From: Kiritimatiellia bacterium
GTDB taxonomy: Bacteria > Verrucomicrobiota > Kiritimatiellia > JAAZAB01
Direction of reading: 5' to 3'
NCBI GenBank assembly: GCA_028715905.1
Contig: JAQUQV010000027.1
Span: 1-33,061 of the forward strand
DNA: 33,061 bases
The notes beneath the pieces were generated by a model that saw only the letters and a program-made list of their open reading frames with translations, did no database searches and had not been told where the DNA came from. Made by a program: the position numbers and the translations under genes. Shown in pieces: positions 3,001 to 27,677 of the stretch (position 1 is its first letter; every line of letters begins with the position of its first letter).

Positions 3001-5495
3001 TCATCGTTGCCGATCGCTCCGTCTATGTCTGGCGCGGCGCGCGTTTTGGGGACGGTCATGTAAAGGCGGTGTTCCGGCGGGGTGGCGGCGGCGTCGTTTT
3101 TCATGGATGTTGCCTTGTTATTTTGGTTTTGCAGACTCGCGATGTTTTTGCAGAGAACCAGGCGGAGCCGGTCGTAGTCGTCAAGCGCCAGCCCGCTTGT
3201 GATTTTATATTCGCCGCCGACGATCTTGACGTCGTCCGGTTGGTAGCTTTCCTTTTCCCATTTTCCCGGCAAATTATGCATGCCGACGGGGTTCAGGCCG
3301 CTGAAGTCAATTTTGGAGAGGAGCGCGGCGACTTCCTTCTTCGCTTCGCGGGCGATCTTTTTCTTTTCCGGGTTCGCGGCCGCTTCCGCTTGTCTGGCCA
3401 GCTGGTCCAGCGTGTATAGGAGCCGGTAATCTTCAACGCCCTCGCGGGTCGCCTCCCATCCGATGGACGGTCCGCCCCGGCGCTCCGCGTCGGCGGGGTA
3501 ACGGAACGCGTAGCAGGTTTTCCCGGGCGGCAGTGTCCATTCGTCATAGTGGTTTTTACGGGGGGACTGATAATGCCAGTTAAACGCTCCCCGCGCGCCT
3601 TTAATCCATAACGCCAGGCCGTTTCCGAAGCGCATCGCTTCCGGGTTAACGCCCGTTGTGTCCACGTTGTAAAACAGGATTTTCTTTCCGTCCCGTTCGG
3701 CCTTTTTCAGGAACTCATCCCAGGCGCAGTCAAAGGCGGTGAATTTATCGCTCACGCAAACGGGCGGATGGGAGAAGGTAAGCAGAATCATATCCATGAG
3801 CTCGTAATATTCATGGGCGAAATTGATGGCATTTGGAATGGGATGGTTGAGTCCGTGCCCGGCGGTTTTCAGCCCCATGTTCCGCATGATTTTGTTGCAG
3901 ACCCGCGTCATCTCAATGCGATTTTCCGAAAACGGGTAAGGATACCCCTCGTCGGCCGCAAAATAATAAATTTCCGGCCAGTTGCGTTTCGCGCCCTCTT
4001 CCGTTATGCGTTTGAAAATTTCGCCGAATACGGCGGCAAATTCACGGCTGCCGGGCTTGCCGCCCAGTTTTTCGCTGATATTCATGGGTTCATAGGCATA
4101 CCACATGACGGGTTTGCTGAAACCTGCGTCGCGGCAGGTGTCCAGCACAAAAGCCAGGCCGTTGGCGTAATCCCATTTGATCCGGATTTTGCCGTCCGCA
4201 TCCTTTTGCGCCGCGGAACCCAAAGGCCCGCAATGGCAGACGGAATTCATGCCGTGTTCCCGCATGTCCTCGTAATGGTTTTTCAACAGGTGCTTGTCCG
4301 GTATGTCGGCATACATTCCCCACAGCGCTTCCTCGGGTTCCAGCGGCTTGACGGCAAAAACCTCAAGTTCAATCCTCAACTTTTTGGCCGGCGCGTTGGC
4401 GGGGCTGATGAGAATGTCGCCTTCGTATTTCCCGGGCCGCGCGTCCTCGGGAACTTTGACTGTGGCCCAGAACTGCTGGGTTTTGTTTTTTTCCAGGGAA
4501 ATTCCGTCAAATGGTTCAAGGTAGGTTGGCGACAATATATATTCCGTGCTCTGAACGTGTATTTTACGGTATAAATAATGTGTCTTGCGCAGGTCAATTG
4601 CCGCCGAAGGGATCAGGACGTTCGGGTCGCCCGCGAGAACGAGGTCGGAGGCGGAGATTTTCAAATTTTCAATCTTGTCCAGCGTGTGGACGCAAAAAGT
4701 CAGCGGCGCGCGGTCGGACGGGAAAGAAAGCGCGGCAATTTTCAGCTCGTCAACGCCTTTTTCCGGCGTCATATCGGGCAAAATGTAGCTCAACGGATTG
4801 ACGGGGAAGACGGTGTAACCGGCATTGACGATTTCTTCCGACCAGGCCGGTTCCTTGCCTTTCCATTGGATGGGGGCATACCCCGTTTCCCAGCTTGGAT
4901 TCGGTTTTATCGGCTCAACCTTTAAATCATCAATCCAGGCGCTGCCTTTTGCCCCGGGCGTTTGCCACGGATTGACCGCGGCCCAAAGTCTTATTTTTAC
5001 CGCGCCCCGGGGAATATTTTTGCCGAAATAACTCACGTATTTTGTCCAATCGCTTCTGCCCGTCGCGGCAAAAAAACCGGTGGGCACATTGCCGCCGGAC
5101 GCGAGGGGATCCGCGGGCAGAATCCGGCCTTCGGCGTCGCAATAATTCACTCCGCAATGTATCTTGGTTGTGCCTTCCAGTTCCGTTTTAAGCCAGGCGG
5201 ACAATTTGTAAAGCCCGGATTGACCGTCGCAGGGGATGAATTTATATATGCCCGTCGGGGTGTCGGAGGCTTCAATTTTCAGGCTGTCTTTGCCTCCCGG
5301 CCGGATTGCCTGGTCAAGCCGGACAAGTTCCTCTCGGCCCTCAATGTTCCAGCCGCCGGGTGTTTTGTCGCTTTCCCCGGCCCCCGTGTTGCGGATATTT
5401 GCGGCGTCCGGCGCGGGTTGGGCGGGCTCCTGTGCGCCGATCCCCGCCGCCATCACGAGCCACAACCCAGCTGCCGGTAAAATCATTTGTTTCAT
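1..5495 (-). CDS. Giant secreted multidomain glycosidase-like protein (GH123/DUF4091 + CBM9 + second TIM barrel), 3' end cut by window
   Basis: One open frame runs from an ATG at 5495 to base 1 without a stop, giving at least 1831 residues. It begins with a signal peptide (MKQMILPAAGLWLVMAAG). A beta-sandwich-like binding module follows (about 35-185), then a GH123/DUF4091 unit (about 190-720). That unit has the adjacent Asp515-Glu516 pair (YYFAADEG), matching the family's catalytic pair, and the family's closing signature GWEATREGVEDY near 679-690. Next come a CBM9-like module (about 813-985, PDIDGAIGNDEY) and a long sandwich region. The last part is a second TIM-barrel domain (about 1430-1780, with LYFDWGHVMSC near 1555) and the start of a C-terminal beta sandwich. 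GH123 enzymes are beta-N-acetylgalactosaminidases, but the substrate here is unknown. The gene follows the discoidin-GH123 gene by 28 bases. The large size and the two barrels are unusual. Confidence 0.85.
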   Translation of the reverse strand, partial: MKQMILPAAGLWLVMAAGIGAQEPAQPAPDAANIRNTGAGESDKTPGGWNIEGREELVRLDQAIRPGGKDSLKIEASDTPTGIYKFIPCDGQSGLYKLSAWLKTELEGTTKIHCGVNYCDAEGRILPADPLASGGNVPTGFFAATGRSDWTKYVSYFGKNIPRGAVKIRLWAAVNPWQTPGAKGSAWIDDLKVEPIKPNPSWETGYAPIQWKGKEPAWSEEIVNAGYTVFPVNPLSYILPDMTPEKGVDELKIAALSFPSDRAPLTFCVHTLDKIENLKISASDLVLAGDPNVLIPSAAIDLRKTHYLYRKIHVQSTEYILSPTYLEPFDGISLEKNKTQQFWATVKVPEDARPGKYEGDILISPANAPAKKLRIELEVFAVKPLEPEEALWGMYADIPDKHLLKNHYEDMREHGMNSVCHCGPLGSAAQKDADGKIRIKWDYANGLAFVLDTCRDAGFSKPVMWYAYEPMNISEKLGGKPGSREFAAVFGEIFKRITEEGAKRNWPEIYYFAADEGYPYPFSENRIEMTRVCNKIMRNMGLKTAGHGLNHPIPNAINFAHEYYELMDMILLTFSHPPVCVSDKFTAFDCAWDEFLKKAERDGKKILFYNVDTTGVNPEAMRFGNGLALWIKGARGAFNWHYQSPRKNHYDEWTLPPGKTCYAFRYPADAERRGGPSIGWEATREGVEDYRLLYTLDQLARQAEAAANPEKKKIAREAKKEVAALLSKIDFSGLNPVGMHNLPGKWEKESYQPDDVKIVGGEYKITSGLALDDYDRLRLVLCKNIASLQNQNNKATSMKNDAAATPPEHRLYMTVPKTRAAPDIDGAIGNDEYTFAGEGFLETIYGEYCLYQSRYFLAYDDSRLYIALRTFYCGDDARQKRERGLRILIAPKPDGTNLFEMAIDPFDGVKRTGQNAAVKTESSIQGNIWQAEAAIPFKTLGMDSPGKGREIRLNICRSSPELRVSSCIAPVNRRYEDAANFAVLRFGESSPAVNIGAMGNLAAGYLKPQIKLQNGADSADQATLKTRLQVSGTEKTNESLTIALEPGIWTDASLAPEVFNGSGMLSLRIDSEKHGLLYSARFKMKTKRPLQLQYVYTSPDNNTLKIGLLQTLLEKDGKTLATRVKIKDKQGKELIAKDITPELFDFQAELDIKALPEGDYSLEASLADGQGRDICVVKTDYTRYSSAPWSGNKTGVTDKVPAPWTPLETTGNSVACWGRKYSFENSLLPSQIISQNEPLLAAPINFSCASGGREYAGEFSGMKWLLRSENRVELATTGRCGKINLSCKILVEYDGFAWIETVIAPDTPGQKIDNFKMVIPLRKQHASLANGVDYLLKGTGALPARGWRKNLLQKPAFWIGDNERGLQWFAEDLEGWVAENPEESAVVETVGERSVITLNMIDSPVVLEKSRTIRFGLMATPVRPQPAGWRKWRLRDLGMPFKDASDYPYNLDLWYICFKWCNYPDVNFLIKKEIPEELAGLKKSGVRVCPYLTMHTSSGFSPEWKAFGETWRQTPQAYIPRGELGTGLEWSETTPCMNSGDYRDFYLWKLSKAVRDLDMQGLYFDWGHVMSCDNSLHNCGWQDSKKARHASYTIRGCREIAKRIYVMMKDYHPGAVIAYHMSGEPVMPVHAFADIMVDGENLGSVIAREESYYNLLPLATFRAEYMPYPWGPAVVLLPQFAKGSLVFRPERLNFWKTAEAKKPINHLLGLIMTHGTQCWPNWGVHMDEVWKAQDEFGFDDATDFIPYWNNRDYITIVSPQSENIVVSIYRRKDRFMLVPFNNTDDDVTLKLKINPDNLAFPAGGELKDILAGGFRRTEKNGEVEIFLPKRE

Positions 5496-5513
5496 GGCAT
5501 AAATTTTCCTGTT
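5492..5513 (-). promoter_or_regulatory. Leader of the giant gene: RBS followed by a two-codon ORF overlapping the real start
   Basis: Read on the minus strand, the leader is AACAGGAAAATTTATG. The AGGA lies about 6 bases before an ATG at 5500. That ATG opens only ATG-CCA-TGA, and its stop overlaps the ATG of the giant gene (5495) as ATGA. The same 16 bases recur with one mismatch at 9353-9368. The sequence is seen directly; a role in coupled re-initiation is inference. Confidence 0.4.
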
Positions 5514-5523
5514 CTTTTTGATC

Positions 5524-8103
5524 TCAATTAATGCTTTCCAATGCTTTGAGAATCTGCACGCGGCAGCGATCCGCCGCGGAGCGATCCTTGTCAACCGACC
5601 AGTCTCTCAAGCGCTCCTCAAAGAGGCCCGGGACAACTTCGCCGGCCGCGTCCTTGAGAAGCCTGGCCGCCGCTTCCACCTCCGGCGTATTGATTCCGCG
5701 CGAGCGCAATTCCTCAATGCGGTCCCGCAACATGGCGAGATATTCGTAATCCTCTATTCCCTCGCGCACGGCCTCCCAGTGCTTGCCGTCAACCAGGGAA
5801 TCGGCCGTTGTATACACCACGCCGAAACTCATGCCCTTCCTGTTCGTGGGAATCAATTCGTTCCAGGCCGTGTCCTCCGGTTCCTTGTAATAATTCCAGT
5901 AGTTCCAGAACCCCATGCCGACCGCTTCGTTGCGCCAGCAATGCCAGGCCTGCAGTCTGTGATAATAATAAGGATCAAATAAACGCGCCGGTCCAAAGGC
6001 GCTGTAATACCAGAGTGTTTTTTGTTTCCCCCCGGTGGTCCGGAGAATTTTACACTTGGTTTCGTCCATGCCGCGGTAAGAAGGCAGGTGCGGGCAGAAA
6101 ATATCGTGCAACTCCAGCATTTTTTCCAGCTCCAGGTTGGGCTTTTCCCACCCGGAAGCGTCCGTAAACAGGACAAAATCAGGGACGGCCGCTTTTAATT
6201 GCGCCGCCCAAATGGTGTTTATCCGGTACTGCTCTGGTTTGCCGGGTTCATCCACCAGAATGAATCCTATTTGTTTTGGATCAACTCCCATGTGTTTCGC
6301 GTGGGCCGCAAAGGCGGCGGCCCAGCTTTTTACCATTTTGTTGAACCGGGGCGTCCCCATCGGCTCGCCGGCAAAATCGGTCCCGACCGCAAGGTAGATG
6401 AAATAATTCCGGCTGCCACTCCAATCGCCGATCCAGTCGTCAAATCCTTTCGTACGGAGCGGCTTGGCCAGGTTCCCTTCGGCGTCAAAATCGTCTTTTT
6501 CAGGCCAGCAGGCGGAAGAACGGTGCGCCCAGGGAGTGTCAACAAAATGCTCGCGCATGTCGGCGATGGCAAGTTTGACGTTTTTTTCGGTAAAGTTCGG
6601 ACGGTATAACGGTTTGTCGGTGTAGTCCCACATGCCCAGGGAAAGACGGGGGCGGTCGGGGAAGCGGAAGGGATAGATTTTGAGGGTCAGGGGCACCGCG
6701 AGCGTTTGAGCTGATTTTAATCCGCGTATCCAGCGGTAAATGCGCGTGACGAGAAGAGGATTTTCCGAAGGGCGGACAATAATTTTTCCCTCGTAGACGC
6801 CCGGTTTCACGCCCGCCGGATGAAAAGTCAGCCAGACCTGGCGCGTCATGCCCGGGTGCAGGTCTATCAGCCATCCCTTCTCAGTTCGCTTTGCCGGGGG
6901 CAGGGGGTCGGCGATCATTCTGCCTTCCTGTGTTGCCACAAATTCAACCTGATGGACGGCAATCATCCCGGGGTTGTCGCCACCGGGCAGTTTTTCTATC
7001 GCGAGCAGGGCGGTGAGGGGTTTGTCGGAGGTGTTCATCAGGTTAAGGACTTCGGCCCGGTATTCGTTGTCCATCATTTCAACCAGCAGATGCGGCGGCC
7101 CGGCCGGAGGCTGGATCGGCGTTTCAACGGCCGCGAGGGGGTCCCAGCGGTTATTGTGCCAGGCAAAAAGCGGCGGGAAACCGCTCTCGCGCAGAAGGCG
7201 GGCGTTGACTTTCAGTATTTCGGCATGGATGTTGTCAAGCGGGGTAATGGCGCGGTGGGCCGCATTGGTTATAAAGTCATAATCGGCAGTTCCGGCGCTT
7301 TGCTCCAGCCGGGCCAGCTTCTTCTCAATGGCGTTTTGCCGCTCCGGACTGATTCCCATGCGCACTGCTTTCTCCCTGACCATGGCGGCGTCCCTGCTCA
7401 TCAGTCTCCAGATGAGTTTGGCAAAACAAAATTTTTTGATGTCACCTGCTCGCATGCCCGCCGCGGGTTTCGCAAGCAGGGAATCCGGACCGCGGTAGAT
7501 TTCAATCTCATCACAAAATGGACCATAGTTGCCCATGATAATGAAGATAAGGCGGATATAGCGGCCCTTGGTTGCGAGTTTGTTAGTTGCATAACGATGA
7601 ACCGCGTATCCCTCGGCAGGCGGCGCGCCATCCCGGCCGCACATCTCAACCAGGTCGCCCGCATAGTAAAAATCAGCGCCGTCCTCGCTGGTGAAGATCA
7701 TGACGGCAGCCGGCCATTCAACCCCGGCGCGCCCGGCGGCCGTGTTGAAGGACAAGCCGCCGATCGGCTCCACCTGTTGAAGGTCTATTGTGATGGCAAC
7801 TTTTTTTATTGCAAGCCAGCCGACCGTGCCCTTCTGGACCCAGAAATATCCCTGAGAGTATTCTCCGTCGGTCAACTGCGTGAGATCGTTCTCATCCGTG
7901 CAGTAGCTGTAATTCGGGGCGGGATCAAGCGTGTAAGATTTGCCGCGGGCGATGTTGACCGGCTCCGGGTCGTTTGCTTCCACGCCGCCCAATCCGGATT
8001 TTGCCGGCTGGGGAACGGAATCGGCGCGGCCGGGCCAGGCGGCCAATGTTATAGCCGCAAACATGCATGCTCCGAGCAAAAAATATTTTCCAATAACTTT
8101 TAT
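5524..8103 (-). CDS. Secreted discoidin-domain plus GH123/DUF4091 protein, probable ATA start
   Basis: The product is about 859 residues if it starts at the ATA at 8103. The reason for that start is a perfect GGAGGT at 8109-8114, 5-6 bases upstream, and the peptide it gives (KVIGKYFLLGACMFAAITLAAW), which reads as a complete signal peptide with a basic n-region, a hydrophobic core and PGRADS. In-frame TTG (8079) and ATG (8064) starts lack an RBS and cut into that signal. A TAA sits just upstream at 8107-8109. Domains, numbered from ATA: F5/8-type C (discoidin) about 48-205, a linker, a GH123 N-terminal sandwich about 330-480, and a catalytic barrel with Asp618-Glu619 (FILVDEPG). It ends with the HWEAVREGIEDYEYL signature. 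It is a likely exported beta-N-acetylhexosaminidase-like enzyme; the substrate is not shown by sequence. Confidence 0.85.
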   Translation of the reverse strand: MKVIGKYFLLGACMFAAITLAAWPGRADSVPQPAKSGLGGVEANDPEPVNIARGKSYTLDPAPNYSYCTDENDLTQLTDGEYSQGYFWVQKGTVGWLAIKKVAITIDLQQVEPIGGLSFNTAAGRAGVEWPAAVMIFTSEDGADFYYAGDLVEMCGRDGAPPAEGYAVHRYATNKLATKGRYIRLIFIIMGNYGPFCDEIEIYRGPDSLLAKPAAGMRAGDIKKFCFAKLIWRLMSRDAAMVREKAVRMGISPERQNAIEKKLARLEQSAGTADYDFITNAAHRAITPLDNIHAEILKVNARLLRESGFPPLFAWHNNRWDPLAAVETPIQPPAGPPHLLVEMMDNEYRAEVLNLMNTSDKPLTALLAIEKLPGGDNPGMIAVHQVEFVATQEGRMIADPLPPAKRTEKGWLIDLHPGMTRQVWLTFHPAGVKPGVYEGKIIVRPSENPLLVTRIYRWIRGLKSAQTLAVPLTLKIYPFRFPDRPRLSLGMWDYTDKPLYRPNFTEKNVKLAIADMREHFVDTPWAHRSSACWPEKDDFDAEGNLAKPLRTKGFDDWIGDWSGSRNYFIYLAVGTDFAGEPMGTPRFNKMVKSWAAAFAAHAKHMGVDPKQIGFILVDEPGKPEQYRINTIWAAQLKAAVPDFVLFTDASGWEKPNLELEKMLELHDIFCPHLPSYRGMDETKCKILRTTGGKQKTLWYYSAFGPARLFDPYYYHRLQAWHCWRNEAVGMGFWNYWNYYKEPEDTAWNELIPTNRKGMSFGVVYTTADSLVDGKHWEAVREGIEDYEYLAMLRDRIEELRSRGINTPEVEAAARLLKDAAGEVVPGLFEERLRDWSVDKDRSAADRCRVQILKALESIN

Positions 8104-8121: not shown

Positions 8122-8514
8122 TTAAAGATTAAGGCACTGTCTGACAAACGAGAGCATTTCTTCCTCGTACAGAAAAGCAGTATTGTCCGGATTGGGATTA
8201 TCGGTGGCGGTCATGGTATGCCCGCGGCCGGGCGCCTCCTGATACACGACGGTGTTTCCTTCCGCTCGAAGGCGTTCAACCATACGGCGCGATTGGTCAA
8301 CCGGCACGATGTCATCATCAGTTCCATGCGCTATCCATATCGCCGGAGCTTTTGCACGCACATGATTGATCGGCGATGCTTCAATATATAAATCAGGTGC
8401 CCAGGAAGGCGCCCCGCCCATAAAATCCACGGTTATTGTTGATTTGCGGCGGATATCCGCATCCACCTGAGTCTTTAAATCCATAATCCCGCAATAAACC
8501 GCCTTGACGTTCAT
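8122..8514 (-). pseudogene. Alpha/beta hydrolase (BD-FAE / peptidase S9-like) C-terminal remnant without nucleophile
   Basis: This 130-residue frame keeps only the C-terminal third of an acyl-esterase-type alpha/beta hydrolase. It has the HGTDDDIVP loop with the acid Asp67 and GRGHTM with His99. The N-terminal 150 or so residues of the family, including the oxyanion HGG and the GxSxG nucleophile, are absent, and no trace of them appears upstream, where the GH3 remnant sits. The ATG at 8514 overlaps the GH3 stop as ATGA, so it would still be translated by coupling. A frame opening at 8526 is possible but has no better RBS. An active enzyme is unlikely; a remnant or a non-catalytic fragment fits best. 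Confidence 0.6.
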
Positions 8515-9287
8515 TTTTCTCCGCAAAATATTTTTTCGGCCGCCGCGCGCAGCACAAATTCATTTCGTCCATTGGTGGCGACGACCGCATTGACAAACGG
8601 GATCTGGGAAATAATGAAAGGATTCAGGGCGAGAACCACGACCCGTCCATTGGTTTTCTGCAGATGTTTCAGCAAGTCAATCTGTTCCTCCGTCAAGATG
8701 GCGCTTTGTCCGGAGGGCAGGCGAAAAGACGCGTCAAAAATGACGGCCGAATGATTTTCCGCCATCCGCTTCAGCTCCCCGCCCAGCTCCGCGCCGATCG
8801 TTAATGGGATTGTTTTTTCAACGACACGGCGGCAATGATTTTCAATATACGGTTTTGCCTTCTTTTCGCTCATGTGAACGCCGATGTCAAGTTTTGCGTT
8901 CCGCTCCGGAGCGATCAGCAAGACCGGCTTTTCCGGGGCGCAGGATAACGGCAGGTGTCCGGCCGTATTGCGGGTTATTTTCACGGCTTTGCGGGCTATC
9001 GTCTCCGCAAGTTCCCTGTGTTCCCGGCGCGAGAAGGATGGCGTTCTCAAAGGTTTGAAGAGCCCATATCTCTCCTTGAGCCTGATAATCTTGATCCGTT
9101 CCAGTTCATAATGGGAATTCATTCTTGAATCGCCCTGGCCGGGAAAATGTTTGGCCGTGGAAATCAACCCGTTTTCGCGATACGCCCGGACTTTCCGGAT
9201 GCAATAATCCGATATTTCCGTTTTGCCGAAGCGGAATGAATTCAGCACCTGCGCCGCTTTTTCCTCAAGTGAGAGCTGAATCTTCAT
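8511..9287 (-). pseudogene. GH3 beta-N-acetylhexosaminidase-like gene with two in-frame internal deletions
   Basis: This 258-residue open frame resembles NagZ-type GH3 enzymes in pieces. The usual opening (LSLEEKAAQVL, 6-16) jumps to the KHFPGQGDS motif at 46-54, normally about 120 residues further on. Just after NSHYELERI it jumps to RLKERYGLF (69-77), normally the end of the barrel. About 110 residues before and about 150 after KHFPG are therefore missing, including the region with the catalytic Asp nucleophile. The acid/base dyad of NagZ-type enzymes (Asp-x-His) reads Asn57-Ser-His59 here. Residues 85-258 are a GH3 C-terminal domain. Catalysis by the usual mechanism is not possible. The reading frame is intact and ends in an ATGA overlap with the hydrolase remnant. 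Confidence 0.65.
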
Positions 9288-11429: not shown

Positions 11430-12182
11430 TCACTTATCCGCAATGCCGAAAACATTCACGGCGTTGCCGCGCAGTATTTTTTCTTTGTCTTTTTCCGATA
11501 TGTCCGCATCGAGGACCATGCCCAGGCTGGAGGCCGGATCAAGGAGGGGCATGTCGCTGCCGTAAAGGATTTTCCCGGCGCCGGCGATCCTGACGGCATC
11601 CTCAATTTTGGGTCTTAAGGGGTAGCCGGAGGAAATTTCAAGATAGACGTTGCCGGCCTTGGCCGCGCCTTCCGCCGCCTCCCGCCATTCCGTTCCGCCC
11701 ATGTGCCCCATTATGAACTTTACGGCGGGAAAGGCCTTGGCCAGACAGAACAATCTGGAAACGCTTTGATGCCAGCAATGGAAAAGCACCGTGTTTTTGC
11801 GCGGATACTTTTCACATAAGACTTCCAGAAAACGATAATGGCCTGCGCAATCAAGGGGTTGGGCAATATAACCCTCGCTGTAAAGCTTAAGGCCGACAAA
11901 TTTTTCATCCGGCAGATAACGCTCCATTTCGCGCAGACTCAGGTCCATATAATTCGGGTTCAGCATGAGATAGGCGAAGCAGCCGGCCTGGTTTTTGACC
12001 GCCCCGGCCAGTTGGCGGTTGCCCTCCGCCAAATCGTTGATGATGGCCAGGGACGAGGAGAAAAAAGCCTTTTCAATCTCATATTTCCGCATGATCGCGC
12101 GAATATCATTCAAGCCGGTCTGTTCCGTGAGGATAAACCATTTTCCCATATGGGCATGAACGTCAATAGTTTTCATGTTCAT
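11430..12182 (-). CDS. Amidohydrolase_2 family metal-dependent hydrolase (lactonase/decarboxylase-like)
   Basis: The product has 250 residues and no signal peptide, so it is cytoplasmic. The metal-site residues of the amidohydrolase_2 (PF04909) TIM barrel are present: His9-x-His11 (IDVHAHMG), His135 (VLFHCWHQ), His160 (IMGHMGG) and Asp210 (YGSDMPL). Family members hydrolyse sugar lactones or decarboxylate aromatic acids. A lactonase role would fit the dehydrogenases nearby, but this is inference. The ATG overlaps the stop of the preceding paralog as ATGA (12179-12182), so the two are translationally coupled. It is shorter than many members (about 280-330). Confidence 0.85.
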   Translation of the reverse strand: MNMKTIDVHAHMGKWFILTEQTGLNDIRAIMRKYEIEKAFFSSSLAIINDLAEGNRQLAGAVKNQAGCFAYLMLNPNYMDLSLREMERYLPDEKFVGLKLYSEGYIAQPLDCAGHYRFLEVLCEKYPRKNTVLFHCWHQSVSRLFCLAKAFPAVKFIMGHMGGTEWREAAEGAAKAGNVYLEISSGYPLRPKIEDAVRIAGAGKILYGSDMPLLDPASSLGMVLDADISEKDKEKILRGNAVNVFGIADK

Positions 12183-12919
12183 AACCGCAGCAGTTTCGTG
12201 ATGTTTTCCGAGCGAATCACTTTCTTGTGCTCTTCGGAAATATCCGCCTTTTCCAGGCTCAGGGCCGCCGATGCGAAGTAATACAAGGGAGAGTTGGAGC
12301 CGAAAACAATGCGCCCGGCATGCCCCCTTGACGCAAACAATTGATAACTGTCCGGCGTGTTGAAAAGCGAGGAATCAAGATAAATATTCCGGTTCGTTTC
12401 CATGACCGCGAGCATTTCCGGATAGTAAAAATGGTCAACCGAGGAAATGATCACCGGCGAGCGCCACCGCACGGTCAGTCGGGCGATTTCGGTGATCATG
12501 CCCAGGCAGTGGTTTCCTTCCGGCTGGATGATCAGGGTAATCATGAGGGGCATTTCCGTTTCGGCAACTTCATCCATGAAACGCTGGAAAGGAGCGTAAT
12601 TCAACGGCCAGCCCTGCAAATTAGGAAACAGCCTGATCAGTTTAAACCCCTGTTCAAGGCATTGCCGGGCGACGCCGCCCCCTCCGTAATATTTTCGCAA
12701 GTCCACGGTCGCGGCGGGAATCAGGCGTTTGTCTTCCCCGGCCGCCCGGAGTGTCTCCACATTGCCCTCTTCATAGTCATAAAATATGCCCTTGAGCGAA
12801 AGCGACGCGAATCGCGCCACTTCGTGGCGGTCCATGATCCGCCTCAGGCCGTCAATGCTTACGTCAACCTTTCGCTTCGGCCAGAAACCGAAATAGGTAT
12901 TGATGTCCTTTGTCTTCAT
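12179..12919 (-). CDS. Amidohydrolase_2-like paralog lacking the metal ligands (probable pseudoenzyme)
   Basis: The product has 246 residues. It aligns end to end with the next gene: DINTYFGFW against DVHAHMGKW, FKLIRLFP against FVGLKLYS, IVFGSNSPL against ILYGSDMPL, and the ADISEEHKKVI tail against ADISEKDKEKI. The HxH pair is Asn7/Tyr9, the third and fourth His are gone (region 127-163), and the final Asp is Asn209. Metal-dependent chemistry is therefore unlikely. The intact frame and ATGA overlaps at both ends (12916-12919 with the DegT gene, 12179-12182 with the active paralog) argue for a kept function, perhaps as a structural or regulatory partner. Confidence 0.75.
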   Translation of the reverse strand: MKTKDINTYFGFWPKRKVDVSIDGLRRIMDRHEVARFASLSLKGIFYDYEEGNVETLRAAGEDKRLIPAATVDLRKYYGGGGVARQCLEQGFKLIRLFPNLQGWPLNYAPFQRFMDEVAETEMPLMITLIIQPEGNHCLGMITEIARLTVRWRSPVIISSVDHFYYPEMLAVMETNRNIYLDSSLFNTPDSYQLFASRGHAGRIVFGSNSPLYYFASAALSLEKADISEEHKKVIRSENITKLLRL

Positions 12920-14170: not shown

Positions 14171-15172
14171 TTAACTTCTGACAACAACGTTCCGGTGTTC
14201 CCTTGCAGAACGATAAACTGCTTCCGCGATCTTGAGCGAGGCCAGGCCGTCTTGTCCGGTGACCAGAGGCGGACGGCCGGCTGAAACACATTCAATGAAA
14301 TGTGCGATTTCAGATTTAAAAGTCAGTTTGGCATAAGGCGCGGCGTTTTTCCGTCTTATCCATTTTTTACTCCCGCACTTGAAACGCATTTCATTCCGGC
14401 CGTAGTCAACAACCGCGGTCCCCTTGGAGCCGTATATCTCAACCGTGTTCTCCGATGCCGGCGTGGACCAGCTTAACTCAACGACCCCGGGCACACCGCC
14501 GACCGACTTTAGAAGGATGGCGGCCGTATCCTCAACCTCCATGCGCTGAACAAAAGTGCCGGTAAAAGCGGACACTTCCCGAACCTCGCCGACCAGCCAT
14601 CTGAATAAATCAATTGAATGCACCCCGCAGTCCATGACCACCCCGCCGCCCGAGCGTTCTATTTCGGCAAACCATGTTTTTTCATAATTGACGTCCAGAT
14701 TGAAGCGATTATGGAACATGACCAGCCGCCCGAGTCTGCCGTCCGCGATCATTTGTTTCACCTGCCGGTTCAAGTCATAGAAACGATGGCTGAAGCCGAC
14801 CATCAAAATAACCCTGTTTTGCCTCGCGGCCCTGATCATTTCAGCGGCCTCACGGCTGGTAACGGCCATCGGTTTCTCGCAGAGAATGTGCTTGCCGGCC
14901 CGCGCCGCGGCCACGGCCATCTCCCGGTGAAGATAGACGGGGGCGCAGAGGTTGACGGCGTCAATCCCGGGACTTTGCAGCAACTGCCGGTAATCGGTGA
15001 ACCAGCTCGGCGCGCCCCATTTGGCGGCGGCGCCCTTTGCGGTTTTTTCCGAGCGCGAGCAGACCGCCGCGACCTGCGCCAGGGGATGGTTGTGGTACCA
15101 TGGAAAACAGCCGATATCGGCCTGCCGTCCGCAGCCGATGACTCCGATGCCGATTTTTCGTTGTATTTTCAC
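14171..15172 (-). CDS. Gfo/Idh/MocA family NAD(P)-dependent dehydrogenase
   Basis: The product has 333 residues and starts at GTG (15172), with GGAGGT 4-5 bases upstream, just after the stop of the FAD oxidoreductase. The N-terminal Rossmann fold has GVIGCGRQA (10-18). The EKP motif is at 99-101 (LCEKPMAV), and the C-terminal domain keeps GGGVVMDCGVHSID with Asp181 and His185. The family oxidises or reduces a hydroxyl/keto group of sugars and cyclitols. There is no signal peptide, so it is not a GH109-type exported glycosidase. It stands 76 bases before the DegT aminotransferase, which makes an oxidise-then-transaminate pair plausible. Confidence 0.9.
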   Translation of the reverse strand: MKIQRKIGIGVIGCGRQADIGCFPWYHNHPLAQVAAVCSRSEKTAKGAAAKWGAPSWFTDYRQLLQSPGIDAVNLCAPVYLHREMAVAAARAGKHILCEKPMAVTSREAAEMIRAARQNRVILMVGFSHRFYDLNRQVKQMIADGRLGRLVMFHNRFNLDVNYEKTWFAEIERSGGGVVMDCGVHSIDLFRWLVGEVREVSAFTGTFVQRMEVEDTAAILLKSVGGVPGVVELSWSTPASENTVEIYGSKGTAVVDYGRNEMRFKCGSKKWIRRKNAAPYAKLTFKSEIAHFIECVSAGRPPLVTGQDGLASLKIAEAVYRSAREHRNVVVRS

Positions 15173-15182
15173 GGGACCTCCG

Positions 15183-16574
15183 TCAAATGACCACGCCTTG
15201 TTGCCGCAGGGCCGCTTGCAATTCCCCGATATTTATCCGGCGGGGGATCGTGTTTGTCTTGACCGCCAGGGCGGCGGCGGTTCCGCAGGCCTGGCCGGTT
15301 GCCATGCAGCAGGGCATAAACCTGACCGACGCCAGGGCCTTGTGCGTCACGGAAATACAGCGGCCGGCGACCAGCAGATTATCCGTTTTTTCAGGGACAA
15401 GACAGCGGTAAGGCACGTCATAATCATCCTTCAGGGTAGTATAGTTCTGGCCTTCCGGGTTATGCATGTCCATCGGCGCCCGGTTTTTCGCGATCACATC
15501 ATCAAACCTTCGGCTTTTAAGCGCATCTTCCTCCGTAAAGATGTATTCTCCGATGACCCGGCGCGTCTCGCGCACGCCGATGGAAACGGAACCGCGGTCA
15601 GTCCGGCGGCTGTTCGCGAAGCCGGGAATGTATTTTTTTGCGAAACCGACCAGCGAAGCCAGTTGCTTGGCTGATTCCACTTCCGCGAAAGTCAAATCGC
15701 GCACGTTCGTGCCGTCCACGCCGGCCACGAAACTCCCGCCGATTTCGGCGCGGTCCGTGCCGAGCGTGCCGTTGATCCAGATGGTGTCATAATCAAGATA
15801 TAAATCGCCCTTGGCGCGGGCCGTTTTCAGCAAACCGGTGAATCCGCTCGCGACAAAGAGCGGCAGACGGTCTTCAATAAAATCCGCGATATCTTTCGGA
15901 TGGTTTTTTTTGTACTCGCGCAAAAACCGCCATAATTCGTCGTTATTTGTGTTTTCCATGACCGGTCCGACCAGGGTCATGCCCTGGGTTTTGCCGTCGG
16001 ATTCCCGCCCTTGTTGCCAGGCGGCGCCGGCCCGGGCCGCCACGTCCCCGTCGCCCGTGGCGTCAATGATAACCTTACTCAAAAGGGCCTGCCGGCCGGA
16101 CTTGCTTTCAATGATAATGCCTTTGAGGCGATTGTTTTCAACAATGCTGTCGGCGATCCAGGCGTGCAGGAGCAGGTTTGCGCCGGCCTCCTCCAGCATG
16201 CGCAGGCTGACCCACTTGAAGACATCTACTTTGATTTCCACCAAAAAGCCGTTGTTGATGGGGTTGAAAAAGCGGCGGCCGAGGCCGCCGTTCATTTCAA
16301 GCTTGTCAAGCAATTCCTTGATGATGCCCTTGTGAATTTCCGGCACGTAACCGCCGATCCACGGCATGGGAACAGCCGTGGCCGTGCCGCCCAGGAAACC
16401 GTTGGCCTCCACCAGGATGGTTCTGGCGCCGTTCCGCGCCGCGGCTATGGCCGCCACAATACCGGCCACACCGCCTCCGGCCACGATGGCATCGGTTTCT
16501 TCCAATATCGGGGTTTGTCTTGATTTTTCTTCAATGAATGTTTTTTTCATTTTTATATATTTTGATTCTTTCAT
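15183..16574 (-). CDS. FAD-dependent oxidoreductase (FAD_oxidored family), copy 2
   Basis: The product has 463 residues. The dinucleotide-binding motif VAGGGVAGIVAA (31-42) is followed about 20 residues later by an acidic strand end (ILVEANGFLGG). VIIDATGDGDVAARAG and the C-terminal NLLVAGRCISVTHKA are typical of PF12831. No signal peptide is present. The substrate is unknown; the family acts on small organic substrates. It is a close paralog of the protein at 26218-27612, with long identical runs. Its ATG at 16574 overlaps the upstream Gfo/Idh/MocA stop as ATGA. A second in-frame ATG lies 8 codons downstream, and neither has a strong RBS. Confidence 0.87.
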   Translation of the reverse strand: MKESKYIKMKKTFIEEKSRQTPILEETDAIVAGGGVAGIVAAIAAARNGARTILVEANGFLGGTATAVPMPWIGGYVPEIHKGIIKELLDKLEMNGGLGRRFFNPINNGFLVEIKVDVFKWVSLRMLEEAGANLLLHAWIADSIVENNRLKGIIIESKSGRQALLSKVIIDATGDGDVAARAGAAWQQGRESDGKTQGMTLVGPVMENTNNDELWRFLREYKKNHPKDIADFIEDRLPLFVASGFTGLLKTARAKGDLYLDYDTIWINGTLGTDRAEIGGSFVAGVDGTNVRDLTFAEVESAKQLASLVGFAKKYIPGFANSRRTDRGSVSIGVRETRRVIGEYIFTEEDALKSRRFDDVIAKNRAPMDMHNPEGQNYTTLKDDYDVPYRCLVPEKTDNLLVAGRCISVTHKALASVRFMPCCMATGQACGTAAALAVKTNTIPRRINIGELQAALRQQGVVI

Positions 16575-17833: not shown

Positions 17834-20689
17834 CTATTTAACCAGTTGTTTAAGTTTGATGATTTCATCGGCAATGCGCCGGCGGGCGGCGTTGGCCGTT
17901 TCGTCCGTAACATTGCCGGGCGCGAGATAGCAATTGCCGGTCTGCGCGTCGGCGCCCCAGGGCATTTCGTTCAACAGGTCTGCCAGCATTTTTTCAGCCG
18001 CAGCAGTTTCTTTTTCCCGCTCTTTCTCCCTGGCGCGCAGAATCCATTGTTTCAGGGTGTGAATATACTTGTAATCGTCAATCCCCTCGCGAATGCCTTC
18101 CCACTGCAGGGTTGAAATAGTCGCTTCGTTGGAGGTGATATTGCGGGCGGGGTAGGCAATGATGGAGTTTTTGGGAGCGGCGCGCATGTCGGATTCGTCC
18201 CAGTCTATCCAGGGCGTGCCCTTTATGTATTGCCAGGACCAGGAAATATGCGCCCGGGCGCCGGTTTTATAAAAGAGGAATCCCGCCAGGTAACGGTTTG
18301 GCAGCAGTCCTCCCTCTTGGATGCCGTAAACGCCGGCGCCGATGTAGCAGAGGTCCACGTTATGCCGGTTGGCCAGCTGCGTGAACTTGCGGCAATCGTT
18401 CCCGGTGTTGGCCAGGATGCTGTTGGCGTCAACGTTCAGATACGGGAACAATTTTTCCGCGGCGTCAAGCGGATACACCGTCATAAATGTTTTGACGCCC
18501 GCCGCCCGGGCCAGCTTGAGCTCCCACAAGGTTTTCCGCATTTTATCCGAGTCCGCGCCGTTCTGGTGCGGTTCGTCCGTGCCCTGGAAATACCAGTTTG
18601 TCACGCCGGCCATCCCGACAATAAGGTCAATGGTTTTCAGGTATTCCTTGAACTCGTTTTGAAACGCGGGGTCTTTCATTTCGTCAAAGAGGAAGTCCGG
18701 CATGTTTTTGCCGCGTTTTTTATCCAGGATGACGTTTTCGGGGTTAAGGAAAAGTATCAGCGGTCCGGTGAACCCGGTCTCCTTGAACAGGCGCGCGGTG
18801 CGGGCGGCGTTTTCAAATTCGTTATAAACGCGTTTGTCGCCCTCCAATCTGTTGGAATCCCAGGGCATATCCCAGATTCCGGTGATGCCGTATTCCTTCA
18901 TGTCGTCCAGATAACGCCGCAGTTCCGCTTCCGTGTAATGATGGCCCGTCCATGGCCGTTCATAGATGCCGCCCCGGTAGCGTTCCATGAGGTTGGAATA
19001 CATCACCCAGTCAATACCGTCCGGCTGTTCCAGATCAAACGGCATGACCTCCAGGCGAAAAATCATGGTTGCGGGCGGCAGGTTGGACGGCGCAATCCGC
19101 AGTTCCGCCCTGTATATTCCCGGTTCGGTCTGCGCGGGGATTTTCACCTGGAGCCAGAACCCTTCGGTCGTTTCCGCGGCAACGTCAATTTTGTCAAAAT
19201 TTTCCAGCAGTTCCGGGATCACGTAATAACCTGATCCCCGTTCGGAGCAGCGCTGCGGCCAGCATTTGACGTGTTTGACGCGGACGGCGTCTTTGCCGAT
19301 TGAATCGCCGGCCGCGTTCTTCAAGTCGCCGTCCAGGGCGATTGACAAGGCCTTGATGTCCTTCAATCCGTAGACCATAAACCAGGCGGCGGCGTATTGC
19401 CCGGGCGCCGCGAAGGCGCTGATTTCATAGCCGGCTTCTTCCGGTTGGGGGATGCTGTCCGGGTAATATCCGCGGATGTTTTTCCGGATATACGGAATAT
19501 AACCTTGCTCGCCGTGCCGCTGTTTCAACTCGCCGGCCAGCGGCGGGTCTTGTTTTTCCCGGCGGGGCCGGTGGATATAAGCCGTTTCGCCGTAGACAAT
19601 GGTCTCTGCCTCGTCCGCGCCAAGTTCCTCCAGGCGCAGGTCGTCAAGCCAGACGGTACCCGTTCCATGATGCTGGCAATATAACCGCACCTGGCCGGTC
19701 GCGGCCGGCGTCCGGAATACGAATTCGCAGGGATTCCAGTCATAGGTTCCGTCGCGAATTTTTAATATTTCCATTTTTTTGTTCTTTTGCCCGACCATGT
19801 AGCAGTTGAGCCGGGCGGAGCGGAGGTTCTCGGCTCTGGCGAACAAGGTCAGTTTGTAGTTTGTGTTGCCCTTGACTTCCAGGTTTTTCGGCGTGAAACA
19901 ACCGCCCCAGGATCCGGGGCTTTCCTTCTGGAGCAGCTTGATCCTCAGCGACTGTTTGCCTTTGTGTTTGACTTCCGTGTCAAAGACCGTTTCGTAATCG
20001 TGGTTGTCCGGCGGAAAATGCCTGATGGTCCAGAAAGACCTTGCTTCAAAGCCAAGCAGGTCGGATAAGGAGGCGTTAGCGGCTTCCGGCCCTTCCGGCG
20101 GGGGGACTTTCATGAAGACTTTTACGGCGGAAATCGGCAGGGCCTGTTCCTTGTCGGCGCCGATTGCGAAAGAGTAATTTTGCTTGCTGTCCATTTTCAG
20201 TTTGCCCGGCGCCGCTTCTATTTCAACGGTTTTCCATTGATTATCGGCCTTCCCGCCGAATTCAGATATTTTTGCAAAGCCGCCGTCTTCGCCGGACCAG
20301 GCCGAGAATTGCGCCGGCGCGGATAAAACATCCTTGAAGTCAATCTCCACGAAGACGGGATGTTTCGGACTGCCCTGGCCGTCGGCCAGGAACGCGCTTG
20401 CCTCAATCAGGGCGCGTTGGCCCGGCGACTCCGCTTTCCTTATGGCGCGGTAGGTGGTCTTTCCCTCGCGGGCCTGCTCGCTCCAGAAGTCCCGCGGCGC
20501 GACGTGCAGGGGGATATACCACTCAAAATCGTCGGACCCCTTGGACTCAACGCCGTCGTTCGTTCCCAGCCGGCGGAAATGGCCGGTCTCTTGATTCGTG
20601 TCTATTTCGGCGCCGCTTGCTCCGGCGGCGGCCGCCAGGCAGATGGCCGGGCCGATCAATCTCCATCCGATTGCGCAGTTTATGTTCAT
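17834..20689 (-). CDS. Secreted GH123/DUF4091-like protein with N-terminal beta-sandwich binding modules
   Basis: The product has 951 residues from the ATG at 20689. That start gives a signal peptide (WRLIGPAICLAAAAGASGA) and an ATGA overlap with the upstream GH123 gene; an in-frame extension to 20743 would bury the signal. Modules are an N-terminal sandwich (about 35-200), a CBM4/9-like jelly roll (about 210-357, with TVWLDDLRLEELG), a GH123 N-terminal sandwich (about 400-555) and the catalytic barrel (about 557-905). The barrel has Asp705-Glu706 (YFQGTDEPHQ) and the QWEGIREGIDDYKY signature (863-875). The GH123 mechanism uses such an Asp-Glu pair with help from the substrate acetamido group, so a 2-acetamido sugar is the expected target. 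It is the tandem paralog of the next upstream gene. Confidence 0.88.
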   Translation of the reverse strand: MNINCAIGWRLIGPAICLAAAAGASGAEIDTNQETGHFRRLGTNDGVESKGSDDFEWYIPLHVAPRDFWSEQAREGKTTYRAIRKAESPGQRALIEASAFLADGQGSPKHPVFVEIDFKDVLSAPAQFSAWSGEDGGFAKISEFGGKADNQWKTVEIEAAPGKLKMDSKQNYSFAIGADKEQALPISAVKVFMKVPPPEGPEAANASLSDLLGFEARSFWTIRHFPPDNHDYETVFDTEVKHKGKQSLRIKLLQKESPGSWGGCFTPKNLEVKGNTNYKLTLFARAENLRSARLNCYMVGQKNKKMEILKIRDGTYDWNPCEFVFRTPAATGQVRLYCQHHGTGTVWLDDLRLEELGADEAETIVYGETAYIHRPRREKQDPPLAGELKQRHGEQGYIPYIRKNIRGYYPDSIPQPEEAGYEISAFAAPGQYAAAWFMVYGLKDIKALSIALDGDLKNAAGDSIGKDAVRVKHVKCWPQRCSERGSGYYVIPELLENFDKIDVAAETTEGFWLQVKIPAQTEPGIYRAELRIAPSNLPPATMIFRLEVMPFDLEQPDGIDWVMYSNLMERYRGGIYERPWTGHHYTEAELRRYLDDMKEYGITGIWDMPWDSNRLEGDKRVYNEFENAARTARLFKETGFTGPLILFLNPENVILDKKRGKNMPDFLFDEMKDPAFQNEFKEYLKTIDLIVGMAGVTNWYFQGTDEPHQNGADSDKMRKTLWELKLARAAGVKTFMTVYPLDAAEKLFPYLNVDANSILANTGNDCRKFTQLANRHNVDLCYIGAGVYGIQEGGLLPNRYLAGFLFYKTGARAHISWSWQYIKGTPWIDWDESDMRAAPKNSIIAYPARNITSNEATISTLQWEGIREGIDDYKYIHTLKQWILRAREKEREKETAAAEKMLADLLNEMPWGADAQTGNCYLAPGNVTDETANAARRRIADEIIKLKQLVK

Positions 20690-23196
20690 TTGTTTAAAAG
20701 CCGGACCAGGCCGGTGATTTCCAGGGCAATTTCCTCCCGGCATTCATTGGCCGCGGTGTCCGTGAAATTGCCGGGATCAAGATAATAGTTGCCGATTTTA
20801 AAGGCGTTTTCTGAGTCGCGGAAAACTTCCGGAATTCGGCTTAAAATGGCGTTCAGCTTGTTTTCCGCGGCGTCGGCGGCCTCGCGCAGGCCGTTCTTTC
20901 TTGCCAGCGCGATGTAATGCCGCAGGGTGTAAAGGTATTTATAATCGGTGATGCCCTCGCGGATGCCTTCCCATTGAAGGGTGGAAATATAAGATTCGGG
21001 CGCGTCCGCGTTCCGGGCGGGATAGGCGATCATGCTGCTTTTTCTTTCGCGGTAATTATTTTGTTTAAACTCATTGAAAGCATCGCCTTTTACCCTTTGC
21101 CAGACCCAGCTGACATGCGCCTCGCCTTCCGTCTGGGCGAAGCCGAATCCCGAATGGAAACGGTTCGGCATGAGTCCGCCTTCCTGGCCCGTGTAACATC
21201 CTCCGCCCAGATACCAGAATTTCGTTCCGGCCGCCGCCAGCATTTTCAGGTTTTTTACGGTGGGGCCGGCGCTGATATCAGCGTTCAGGAAGGGAAGGAA
21301 TTCCATGGCCTCCCTTTCGTCTTTATACATGAGATAATAGGTAAGGCAGGTGTTGACTCCCAGGCTGCGCATGATTTTGTAAACCCAGAGCGTGCGCCGG
21401 TAAGTGTCGCTGTCGGGCGGCGGCTCGTCCCGCCCGTAAAAGCACCATTTCAGGCCCGGCGCGCGTTCTTTGATAAAGGCGTCAATCAGGGGAACCGCCT
21501 GGCGCAGTCCGGCTTCCACTTGGCTTTTCCACGGATCGCTGAAGACCGCGTCCTTGACGCCGAGGGCTTTTGCCACGGACTGTTCAAGATTGAACTGGAA
21601 CCAGAAGGCGACGGGGCCTTTCAGGCCGGCCTGGTTGTATATTTTCAGAATGTCGTTCAAATAATCCGACTGAAATTCCGTGATTTTTCCGTGGGGGGCC
21701 GCGAGACTGAAGGTTTTTGATGAGGTGAAATTGAGGATCAAGCCGGAAATGCCGTAGTCTTTGAACAGCTCCAGCATTTCCTTCTGCTGGTCAATCTTTT
21801 TATCCGGATAGGGGTCAATGTACATCAACCAGTGTTTGTCATCCGGCTCTTCCAGCTTGAAAGGCAGGATGGCAACTTCAAACGGAATATCCGCGAGTTT
21901 GTCGCCGGCCTGGGTTTCAATGGCGAGCAGGCCTTTGTATTTGCCTGCTTTCGCCGCGGGACTTGTCCTGAAATCAACCCAGAACGTGCAGGATTCGTTT
22001 TGGCGGAGAAGGACGTCGTCAAATCGCTCAAGCAGTTCGGGGATGATGTAATAGGACCTTGTCGCCCAGATCGGCATTTGCGGCCAAAAGGCCGCTTTTT
22101 TTACCCGGATTTCCCGGGTCAATTCAAGCGCCTGTCCGGATTCCTCCGCCGGCGGCGCCGCGCGGATTTTCAGATCGGGCAGGTCGCGCAGGGCGTGCAG
22201 GCTGAAATAAAAGGCTTTCCGTTCGCCCGGCGCCGCGGCAAGCTTGATTGCGCCGGTGATTTCCTCCTTCTGGGGAATACTGTCGGGATAGACCAGACGC
22301 GGGTCCCGTTGAAAAACCAGGAAACCGGTTCTGTATTCCGGCGAGAAAAGCCGGCGGAAGAAAGAGACCTGCGGACGGGGCGGATCCGGCTCGGTGTTTC
22401 GCGGGGCGTAAAAATATTTCTTGCCGTCAAATTCAAAGATTTTCTCCGTGTTGTATGACTTATATTCGGCGCAGGAATTTTTTATCCGGAGTTCATCAAT
22501 AGCAACGTGCGCCAGGCGCGCGCCGGATTTTGCGTTTCCAAAAGTCTTGCCGCGCCCCACGATCAGCTCTTTCGGCGGGGACTGCCAGCGGCCGGGTAGT
22601 TCGCCCACTGTGCTCATTTTGCCGTTCACCATAATGGCGATGATGTTCGCCTCGCCGCCGAAAATGCAGGCAATATGGAGCCATTCGCCGCGTTTAAACC
22701 GCTGGGGATGGCTGAAGGCAAAAGCCGCCTTTTGATCGGCCCGCCAGCAGAAGGTGAATACCTGCTCGCGCTTGTCGTAAAAGGCGTACATGCTGTTTTT
22801 ATACACATCCTGAGGCTTATCGGCGGCGTCGCAGCAGAATAAAAAACAATATTGCTCCGGCGCCTTGTCATGATCAAAATCGGGCCTGATCCACATTTCA
22901 ATCAGGCCGCAGTTGAAATCAACGTTGCCTTCCGTTGCGATTTTGAGGCAGTTTTGCGGGTCGTCAAAGCCGGTCAGCGCCCGGCCGAATTTGCCGTCGG
23001 TTTGCATGATTTTTCCGCATTTTTCAATTTGCGGATTGCCCCGGGCAAAGTCGGCCTGATCGCCGATGTTATCAAAATGCGCCAGGAAAAGCGTGTTGTC
23101 GTCGGGAATGAATTTCTTGTCCCATTCCACGGCGGCTTGTGAGGCGGCAATGGAAGCAACGAGACAGATCAATCCGGGAAAAAGCAATCTTCGCAT
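20686..23196 (-). CDS. Secreted LamG-domain plus GH123/DUF4091-like protein
   Basis: The product has 836 residues from the ATG at 23196 (AGGGAATAATACC before it). This start gives a signal peptide (MRRLLFPGLICLVASIAASQA); a frame extension to 23256 adds 20 non-signal residues and is rejected. Residues about 28-245 form a concanavalin/LamG-type sandwich (FLAHFDN; GKFGRALTGF; LIEMWIRPDF; GEWLHIACIFGG; VAIDELRI). The GH123 sandwich (about 300-450) and barrel (about 455-800) follow, with Asp590-Glu591 (FYGRDEPPP) and the QWEGIREGITDYKY signature. Its GH123 half matches the downstream neighbour closely, including PELLERFD against PELLENFD and SMIAYPARN against SIIAYPARN. The two differ in the binding module. 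It is likely exported to act on glycans. Confidence 0.88.
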   Translation of the reverse strand: MRRLLFPGLICLVASIAASQAAVEWDKKFIPDDNTLFLAHFDNIGDQADFARGNPQIEKCGKIMQTDGKFGRALTGFDDPQNCLKIATEGNVDFNCGLIEMWIRPDFDHDKAPEQYCFLFCCDAADKPQDVYKNSMYAFYDKREQVFTFCWRADQKAAFAFSHPQRFKRGEWLHIACIFGGEANIIAIMVNGKMSTVGELPGRWQSPPKELIVGRGKTFGNAKSGARLAHVAIDELRIKNSCAEYKSYNTEKIFEFDGKKYFYAPRNTEPDPPRPQVSFFRRLFSPEYRTGFLVFQRDPRLVYPDSIPQKEEITGAIKLAAAPGERKAFYFSLHALRDLPDLKIRAAPPAEESGQALELTREIRVKKAAFWPQMPIWATRSYYIIPELLERFDDVLLRQNESCTFWVDFRTSPAAKAGKYKGLLAIETQAGDKLADIPFEVAILPFKLEEPDDKHWLMYIDPYPDKKIDQQKEMLELFKDYGISGLILNFTSSKTFSLAAPHGKITEFQSDYLNDILKIYNQAGLKGPVAFWFQFNLEQSVAKALGVKDAVFSDPWKSQVEAGLRQAVPLIDAFIKERAPGLKWCFYGRDEPPPDSDTYRRTLWVYKIMRSLGVNTCLTYYLMYKDEREAMEFLPFLNADISAGPTVKNLKMLAAAGTKFWYLGGGCYTGQEGGLMPNRFHSGFGFAQTEGEAHVSWVWQRVKGDAFNEFKQNNYRERKSSMIAYPARNADAPESYISTLQWEGIREGITDYKYLYTLRHYIALARKNGLREAADAAENKLNAILSRIPEVFRDSENAFKIGNYYLDPGNFTDTAANECREEIALEITGLVRLLNK

Positions 23197-23272
23197 GGTA
23201 TTATTCCCTTCATTAATGTTTTTCCGGCTCCCATGGCCTTTGATCTCCTCATGCATTTTTTTTCAGTTTTGC

Positions 23273-27612: not shown

Positions 27613-27629
27613 ATGCGGTATTACCTGTT

Positions 27630-27641
27630 TATACATGTATA
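27630..27641. promoter_or_regulatory. Perfect 12-bp palindrome TATACATGTATA, candidate operator
   Basis: The palindrome lies 18 bases before the start of FAD oxidoreductase copy 1 and partly overlaps the predicted -10. Perfect dyads of this kind at a promoter, next to a GntR-type regulator gene, are usual operator sites. I found no second copy of TATACATGTATA in the gaps I read. Binding by the neighbouring regulator is inference. Confidence 0.5.
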
Positions 27642-27677
27642 GTATAATAATGCGTTTAATAATCAAGCTTTTTTTTT
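27639..27677 (-). promoter_or_regulatory. Candidate promoter for the long operon, with an A-tract upstream
   Basis: On the minus strand an A9 tract (27669-27677) leads to TTGATT (27661-27666) as -35, a 16-base spacer, and TACTAT (27639-27644) as -10; TATTAT at 27644-27649 is an alternative -10 with a poorer -35. The matches are only 4/6 each, but the AT-rich block stands out from the GC-rich surroundings. The A-tract resembles an UP element. Confidence 0.4.

Follow-up and report, generated by a model that had tools for sequence, protein, structure and literature searches.

An amidohydrolase and its metal-ligand-free paralog as probable subunits of one heteromeric enzyme from a widespread pair family

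The locus described here raises the question of why a bacterium keeps, directly beside a gene for an amidohydrolase with a complete metal site, a paralog in which this site is erased, and whether the two products work as one enzyme. Both genes lie in a window of 33,061 nucleotides, by which we mean the whole stretch of DNA that was analysed. On its minus strand, a DegT aminotransferase gene is followed by the gene of the degenerate paralog P0001 and then by that of P0002 (Table 1). Successive genes overlap by four bases each, and both ATGA overlaps claimed in a first, sequence-only reading of this DNA are present. Such overlaps would favour equal synthesis of both proteins, as was proposed there. 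For P0002, an alternative start is possible at Met3.

Table 1. Features of the paired amidohydrolase locus and its direct neighbours (positions within the window).
Feature	Position	Strand	Evidence
P0001, degenerate amidohydrolase (pseudoenzyme half), 246 aa	12179..12919	-	sequence, Pfam, AlphaFold2
P0002, amidohydrolase with complete ligand set (catalytic half), 250 aa	11430..12182	-	sequence, Pfam
ATGA overlap, 4 bases, P0001 stop/P0002 start	12179..12182	-	sequence
ATGA overlap, 4 bases, DegT stop/P0001 start	12916..12919	-	sequence
Asn7 of P0001, in place of first metal His	12899..12901	-	sequence, conservation
Conserved loop after strand beta4 of P0001, R96-L-F-P99-N-L-Q102-G-W104	12608..12634	-	conservation in 128 pairs
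Asn209 of P0001, in place of metal Asp	12293..12295	-	sequence
Asp210 of P0002, metal/catalytic Asp	11553..11555	-	sequence, conservation
DegT/DnrJ/EryC1/StrS aminotransferase, directly upstream of P0001	12916..14094	-	Pfam
Gfo/Idh/MocA oxidoreductase, same-strand neighbour, context	14171..15172	-	Pfam

P0001 and P0002 share approximately 27% identity, and the claim that they can be aligned over their whole length is very nearly right, the alignment covering P0001 residues 1-237. Both exceed the Pfam cut-off of 26.4 bits for Amidohydro_2 (PF04909), P0002 with 101.3 bits and P0001 with 30.1 bits, and NCBIfam has no named family for either of them. The metal-ligand set of P0002 is complete and consists of the HxH motif, two inner His and an Asp (H9, H11, H135, H160, D210), whereas P0001 carries N7, Y9, T128, S160 and N209 at these positions and thus none of the five canonical ligands. 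This is in full agreement with the earlier description of one intact and one fully erased active site, and all residues that had been named in both paralogs proved correct when the sequence was read again. Further His residues of P0001 (H137, H163, H200) are missing from its two closest homologs, L034 and L035 of Latescibacterota assemblies, so that no conserved substitute for the lost site is apparent. Other metal ligands in the pocket of P0001 had been named in the first reading as a counter-argument; judged from the sequences of these two relatives, such a site was set aside.

The arrangement is not due to chance, since the source genome holds four degenerate/active pairs, of which two begin with the degenerate gene and two with the active one, and more than 120 further pairs recur beyond this genome. 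We count as the pair family all cases in which a degenerate barrel has a sister-clade barrel with complete ligands next to it or fused to it, as is the case for P0001 and P0002. The sample comprises 137 distinct degenerate domains in fetched loci from the source phylum, the Latescibacterota, haloarchaea and one actinomycete. A partner with at least four of the five ligands was found within 600 bp on the same strand for 128 of them; the sample was picked by similarity to degenerate members, with some assemblies being fragmented, and such frequencies thus describe the pair family and not PF04909 in general. Adjacent genes account for 75 pairs and single-polypeptide fusions for 53, with the natural fusions occurring in both orders (48 degenerate-first, 5 active-first). 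Five of the nine domains without a scored partner are located at contig ends (L017, L055, L103, L137, L158), L105 is a fusion whose second half was aligned by the profile only in part, and the partner of L114 keeps three ligands. The only clear exceptions are L049 (1501-2286) and L157 (1501-2253), lone degenerate genes without an adjacent active partner, which count against a heteromer; L049 comes after a Gfo/Idh gene.

In the reciprocal direction, which was checked in seven genomes, every match to the active profile of at least 144 bits has a degenerate neighbour or a degenerate fused half. Taking both directions together, pairing is near-obligate both ways. The sequence-only reading had proposed to look for the pair in other genomes and held that homologs of the upstream gene always occurring alone would speak against it; with 128 of 137 degenerate homologs paired, the opposite is observed. 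The degenerate-member profile matched 223 of 388 genomes of the source phylum, a figure that is not a pair count, as this profile can also match active members, and found matches in each of the 64 Latescibacterota genomes that were searched, at more than 20 places in some of them. Two adjacent pairs were found in the actinomycete Nonomuraea. Haloarchaeal megaplasmids carry active-first fusions which are annotated only as "amidohydrolase family protein", and since the other annotated members of the sample bear this same name, the degenerate half is probably often mistaken for an enzyme.

A maximum-likelihood tree of 31 pairs (IQ-TREE) has a branch with support 99/96 that separates 30 of the 31 degenerate domains from all 31 active domains. 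The sole stray is the partly degenerate L020 (YVHHY), which has a long branch. Subclade topologies match between the degenerate and the active halves, and P0001 and P0002 share a well-supported clade with the pairs of Latescibacterota and with two fusions from genome G039. In one Latescibacterota pair, both members show equal divergence (46-49% identity). Over the 128 pairs, distances among degenerate members and distances among their partners correlate with a Mantel r of 0.89, compared to a maximum of 0.06 in 2000 permutations. That these mirror trees arise from shared species history was excluded by partner swaps restricted to the same genome: these gave a mean r of 0.58 and a maximum of 0.77 in 1000 trials and never reached the observed value, so that species history alone is no explanation. 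The slope of degenerate versus active distances is 0.90, and hence the degenerate half is not the faster-evolving one. On the basis of these sequence comparisons, the pair family appears to stem from one old split with subsequent co-diversification of the two halves.

The selective constraint on the degenerate half is also visible in the residues it keeps. Its mean relative entropy is 1.48 bits, that of the active half 1.64 bits. Conserved are D5, N7, G11, N53, R96 (or Lys), P99 and an aromatic residue at W104; the fold residues D5, G11, N53 and N239 are retained. Among the ligand columns of the degenerate halves in the 128 pairs, the first is Asn in 78%, while columns 2-5 vary widely, and no new conserved polar set was found in place of the lost ligands. 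Near-equal conservation together with free ligand columns indicates that the pseudoenzyme half is constrained, but not for metal catalysis. The loop after strand beta4, RxxPxx[H/Q]x[Y/F/W], is specific to the degenerate half in these pairs and, from its conservation, a candidate for an interface or trans-acting loop.

AlphaFold2 predicts an intact barrel for P0001 (pLDDT 94.5, pTM 0.92). For the fused homolog L031 (G007:C17, 544 aa), modelled with an alignment of 32 natural fusions, pLDDT is 94.6 and pTM 0.93 over 530 residues. This pTM value speaks for a confident relative placement of the barrels, and the model predicts an intramolecular dimer of an active and an inactive barrel. A corresponding geometry for P0001 and P0002 would be carried over from this homolog, which belongs to another clade. 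Among the solved structures searched, no single chain spans the two barrels. For one barrel, the best matches are 3cjp, entries of the gamma-resorcylate decarboxylase type, LigJ and ACMSD; the solved proteins most closely related to the active half are decarboxylases, hydratases and uncharacterised hydrolases.

Near-obligate pairing in both directions, fusions in both orders, mirror trees and the confident two-barrel fusion model lead us to the view that P0001 and P0002 are very probably subunits of one obligate heteromeric enzyme, with P0002 as the catalytic and P0001 as a ligand-free, fixed partner. The heteromer of enzyme and pseudoenzyme that had been suggested from the letters of the DNA is strongly supported by the same four lines, one of them a structure prediction, and the two proteins would be in physical contact in the source organism. 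Fusion and operon coupling can, on the other hand, also arise where two proteins are linked through a pathway but share no active site. P0001 would then be an independent, metal-free enzyme for a neighbouring step, with no need to touch P0002. Fusions of consecutive enzymes are generally common, and P0001 has kept its fold together with the conserved residues of its own listed above. Cofactor-free PF04909 enzymes exist (PMC10811679); within this family, LigI provides a metal-free precedent. Four of the five ligand positions are nevertheless free to vary without a new conserved polar set, and one-to-one pairing, strict co-diversification and a confident two-barrel unit are in better agreement with a subunit, which makes the independent enzyme quite improbable.

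P0001 might also be a regulatory or ligand-sensing subunit that binds a metabolite of the pathway in its metal-free pocket and modulates P0002. The frequent Asn at the former first ligand and the conserved loop at the barrel mouth are consistent with such a role, and partner activation by a catalytically dead paralog is known from the trypanosome AdoMetDC-prozyme (PMC5201418), where the paralog is likewise obligate, although fold and organism group are unrelated. The remaining pocket positions, however, are not conserved in the alignments, and we consider this role unlikely; it overlaps with the heteromer insofar as a complex is needed in both. Loss of all five ligands would, finally, be expected of a decaying, functionless duplicate of P0002, but the open reading frame is intact, both members of a Latescibacterota pair are equally diverged, the slope is close to that of equal rates, constraint is similar in both halves, and the pseudoenzyme has been retained across Bacteria and Archaea. 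Decay of a recent duplicate is ruled out by the deep split in the tree and the equal rates, and decay as such has a negligible probability.

The closest precedent for a heteromeric enzyme of P0001 and P0002 is AibH1H2, the 2-aminoisobutyrate hydroxylase of Rhodococcus wratislaviensis, which is reported as an alpha2beta2 tetramer (PMC7782822, PMC10401708, PMC12141560) and likewise combines two PF04909 barrels in a heteromer, the one being catalytic and the other apparently structural. AibH2, an oxygenase that has a Rieske partner, carries a dinuclear Mn/Fe site (D25, H27, H211, E265, D337, H340, D342); in AibH1, a mononuclear metal site is retained, and AibH2 homologs sometimes occur without AibH1 (PMC12141560). 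In contrast, P0002 has the ordinary HxH-H-H-D set with GSD210MPLLD and no D-x2-H-x-D loop, P0001 is without a ligand set and its stray His residues are not conserved, and pairing in the family described here is near-obligate with frequent fusions. No Rieske protein was found among the window genes scanned with Pfam. The degenerate-profile search did not match the AibH1H2 structure entries, and the active-profile search matched one AibH1H2 chain marginally (8ful_A, E 7.5e-4). Membership in the AibH1H2-type oxygenases was rejected, since neither the ligand set nor the partner genes agree with it.

Other systems share single aspects with the pair. The pseudo-dihydroorotase (pDHO) of Pseudomonas aspartate transcarbamoylase is an inactive barrel of the amidohydrolase superfamily as well, and is required for assembly and activity of its partner (PMC7053772), but this partner is the unrelated ATCase and not its own active paralog; no ATCase was found among the window genes scanned with Pfam. 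ACMSD, a PF04909 zinc decarboxylase (4ifk), is among the closest folds to P0001. It is a homodimer whose active site is completed by Arg239 from the adjacent subunit (PMC11650718), and its subunit interface is thus catalytic, but it is built from two identical active subunits. The best match of the active half in both sequence and fold is the uncharacterised amidohydrolase 3cjp (CAC3332), a single barrel for which no pseudoenzyme partner is known from the entry. A literature search, whose coverage left out most subscription journals, yielded no description of the present pairs. While the principle is known, the pair family, its extent, the fusions and the co-diversification appear to be new.

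As to the reaction, the gene neighbourhood gives some indication. In 25 of the 128 pairs there is a DegT gene no more than 700 bp away on the same strand, often directly beside the degenerate gene, and DegT genes recur beside pairs across clades (L013, L032, L057, L065, L094, L099, L136 and others) as well as in haloarchaeal clusters, which suggests that DegT and the two-barrel arrangement form a conserved module. The best solved match of the DegT protein is glutamine-scyllo-inositol transaminase. DegT aminotransferase and Gfo/Idh dehydrogenases together suggest the breakdown of a sugar or cyclitol derivative, and P0001/P0002 would catalyse a hydrolytic or lyase step in this catabolic cluster. 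The lactonase activity considered earlier is conjectural and not specifically supported: the active half has its nearest solved relatives in the decarboxylases, hydratases and uncharacterised hydrolases named above, and NCBIfam and structure searches gave no specific sequence link of P0002 to LigI or other PF04909 lactonases.

The same cluster holds paralogous FAD-dependent oxidoreductases (15183-16574, PF12831, and 26218-27666), a related gene being found near the pair in L179. Three large related proteins are encoded at 17834-20743, at 20686-23256 and in a reading frame open at the window start (1-5606); one has a match to a GH123 N-terminal domain, which suggests a secreted glycan-degrading set. 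The short overlapping reading frames 8122-8526 and 8511-9287 match peptidase S9/esterase and GH3 N-terminal domains only in part and look like truncated genes.

Several pairs deviate from the common scheme. The active half is without the beta5 His, having Met, Leu or Asp as third ligand, in the fused proteins L010 (2284-2997), L022 (2275-2985), L177 (297-1031) and L095 (2513-3268), in which metal binding may be altered or lost. The partly degenerate first members L016 (1510-2232) and L020 (1495-2217), of type Y-A/V-H-H-Y, have lost HxH and Asp but kept the inner His; they have long branches and adjoin a complete partner, and their pairing may have arisen separately. A further degenerate type (FFNAE, FFNGE or FFAGG) was observed in L182 (5164-6642), L220 (a 507 aa ORF) and L216 (182-991 and 1468-2259). 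It is fused to or located beside a complete barrel, matches the profile weakly and is probably another subfamily of pairs. In L114 (1738-3173, G364:C46), which falls into the P0001/P0002 clade, the partner has HYHHS, and both halves may be degenerate.

For the heteromer of P0001 and P0002, we envisage that a duplication turned the homodimer of an ancestral PF04909 enzyme into two different barrels, one catalytic and one not, which became mutually dependent. P0002 would hold the metal centre and carry out the chemistry, while P0001 would have lost its metal site in this ancient duplication and kept its barrel to complete the PF04909-type dimer. P0001 probably stabilises or shapes the active site of P0002, most likely via R96, P99, Q102 and W104 of the beta4 loop. 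More tentatively, the pairs may constitute a large and ancient class of asymmetric amidohydrolases, apparently undescribed, that extends over Bacteria and Archaea. In this class, a single duplication would have split the homodimer, the RxxPxxHxY loop would supply part of the catalytic pocket in trans, and the halves would have radiated, always coupled, into many reactions by which sugars and cyclitols are broken down.

To our knowledge, most couples of enzyme and pseudoenzyme are isolated cases. From one split, a whole radiating family seems to have arisen here, with as many as 27 matching domains in a single genome. Its dozens of natural fusions provide built-in evidence of contact, and make it a good system for studying why evolution retains a dead partner.
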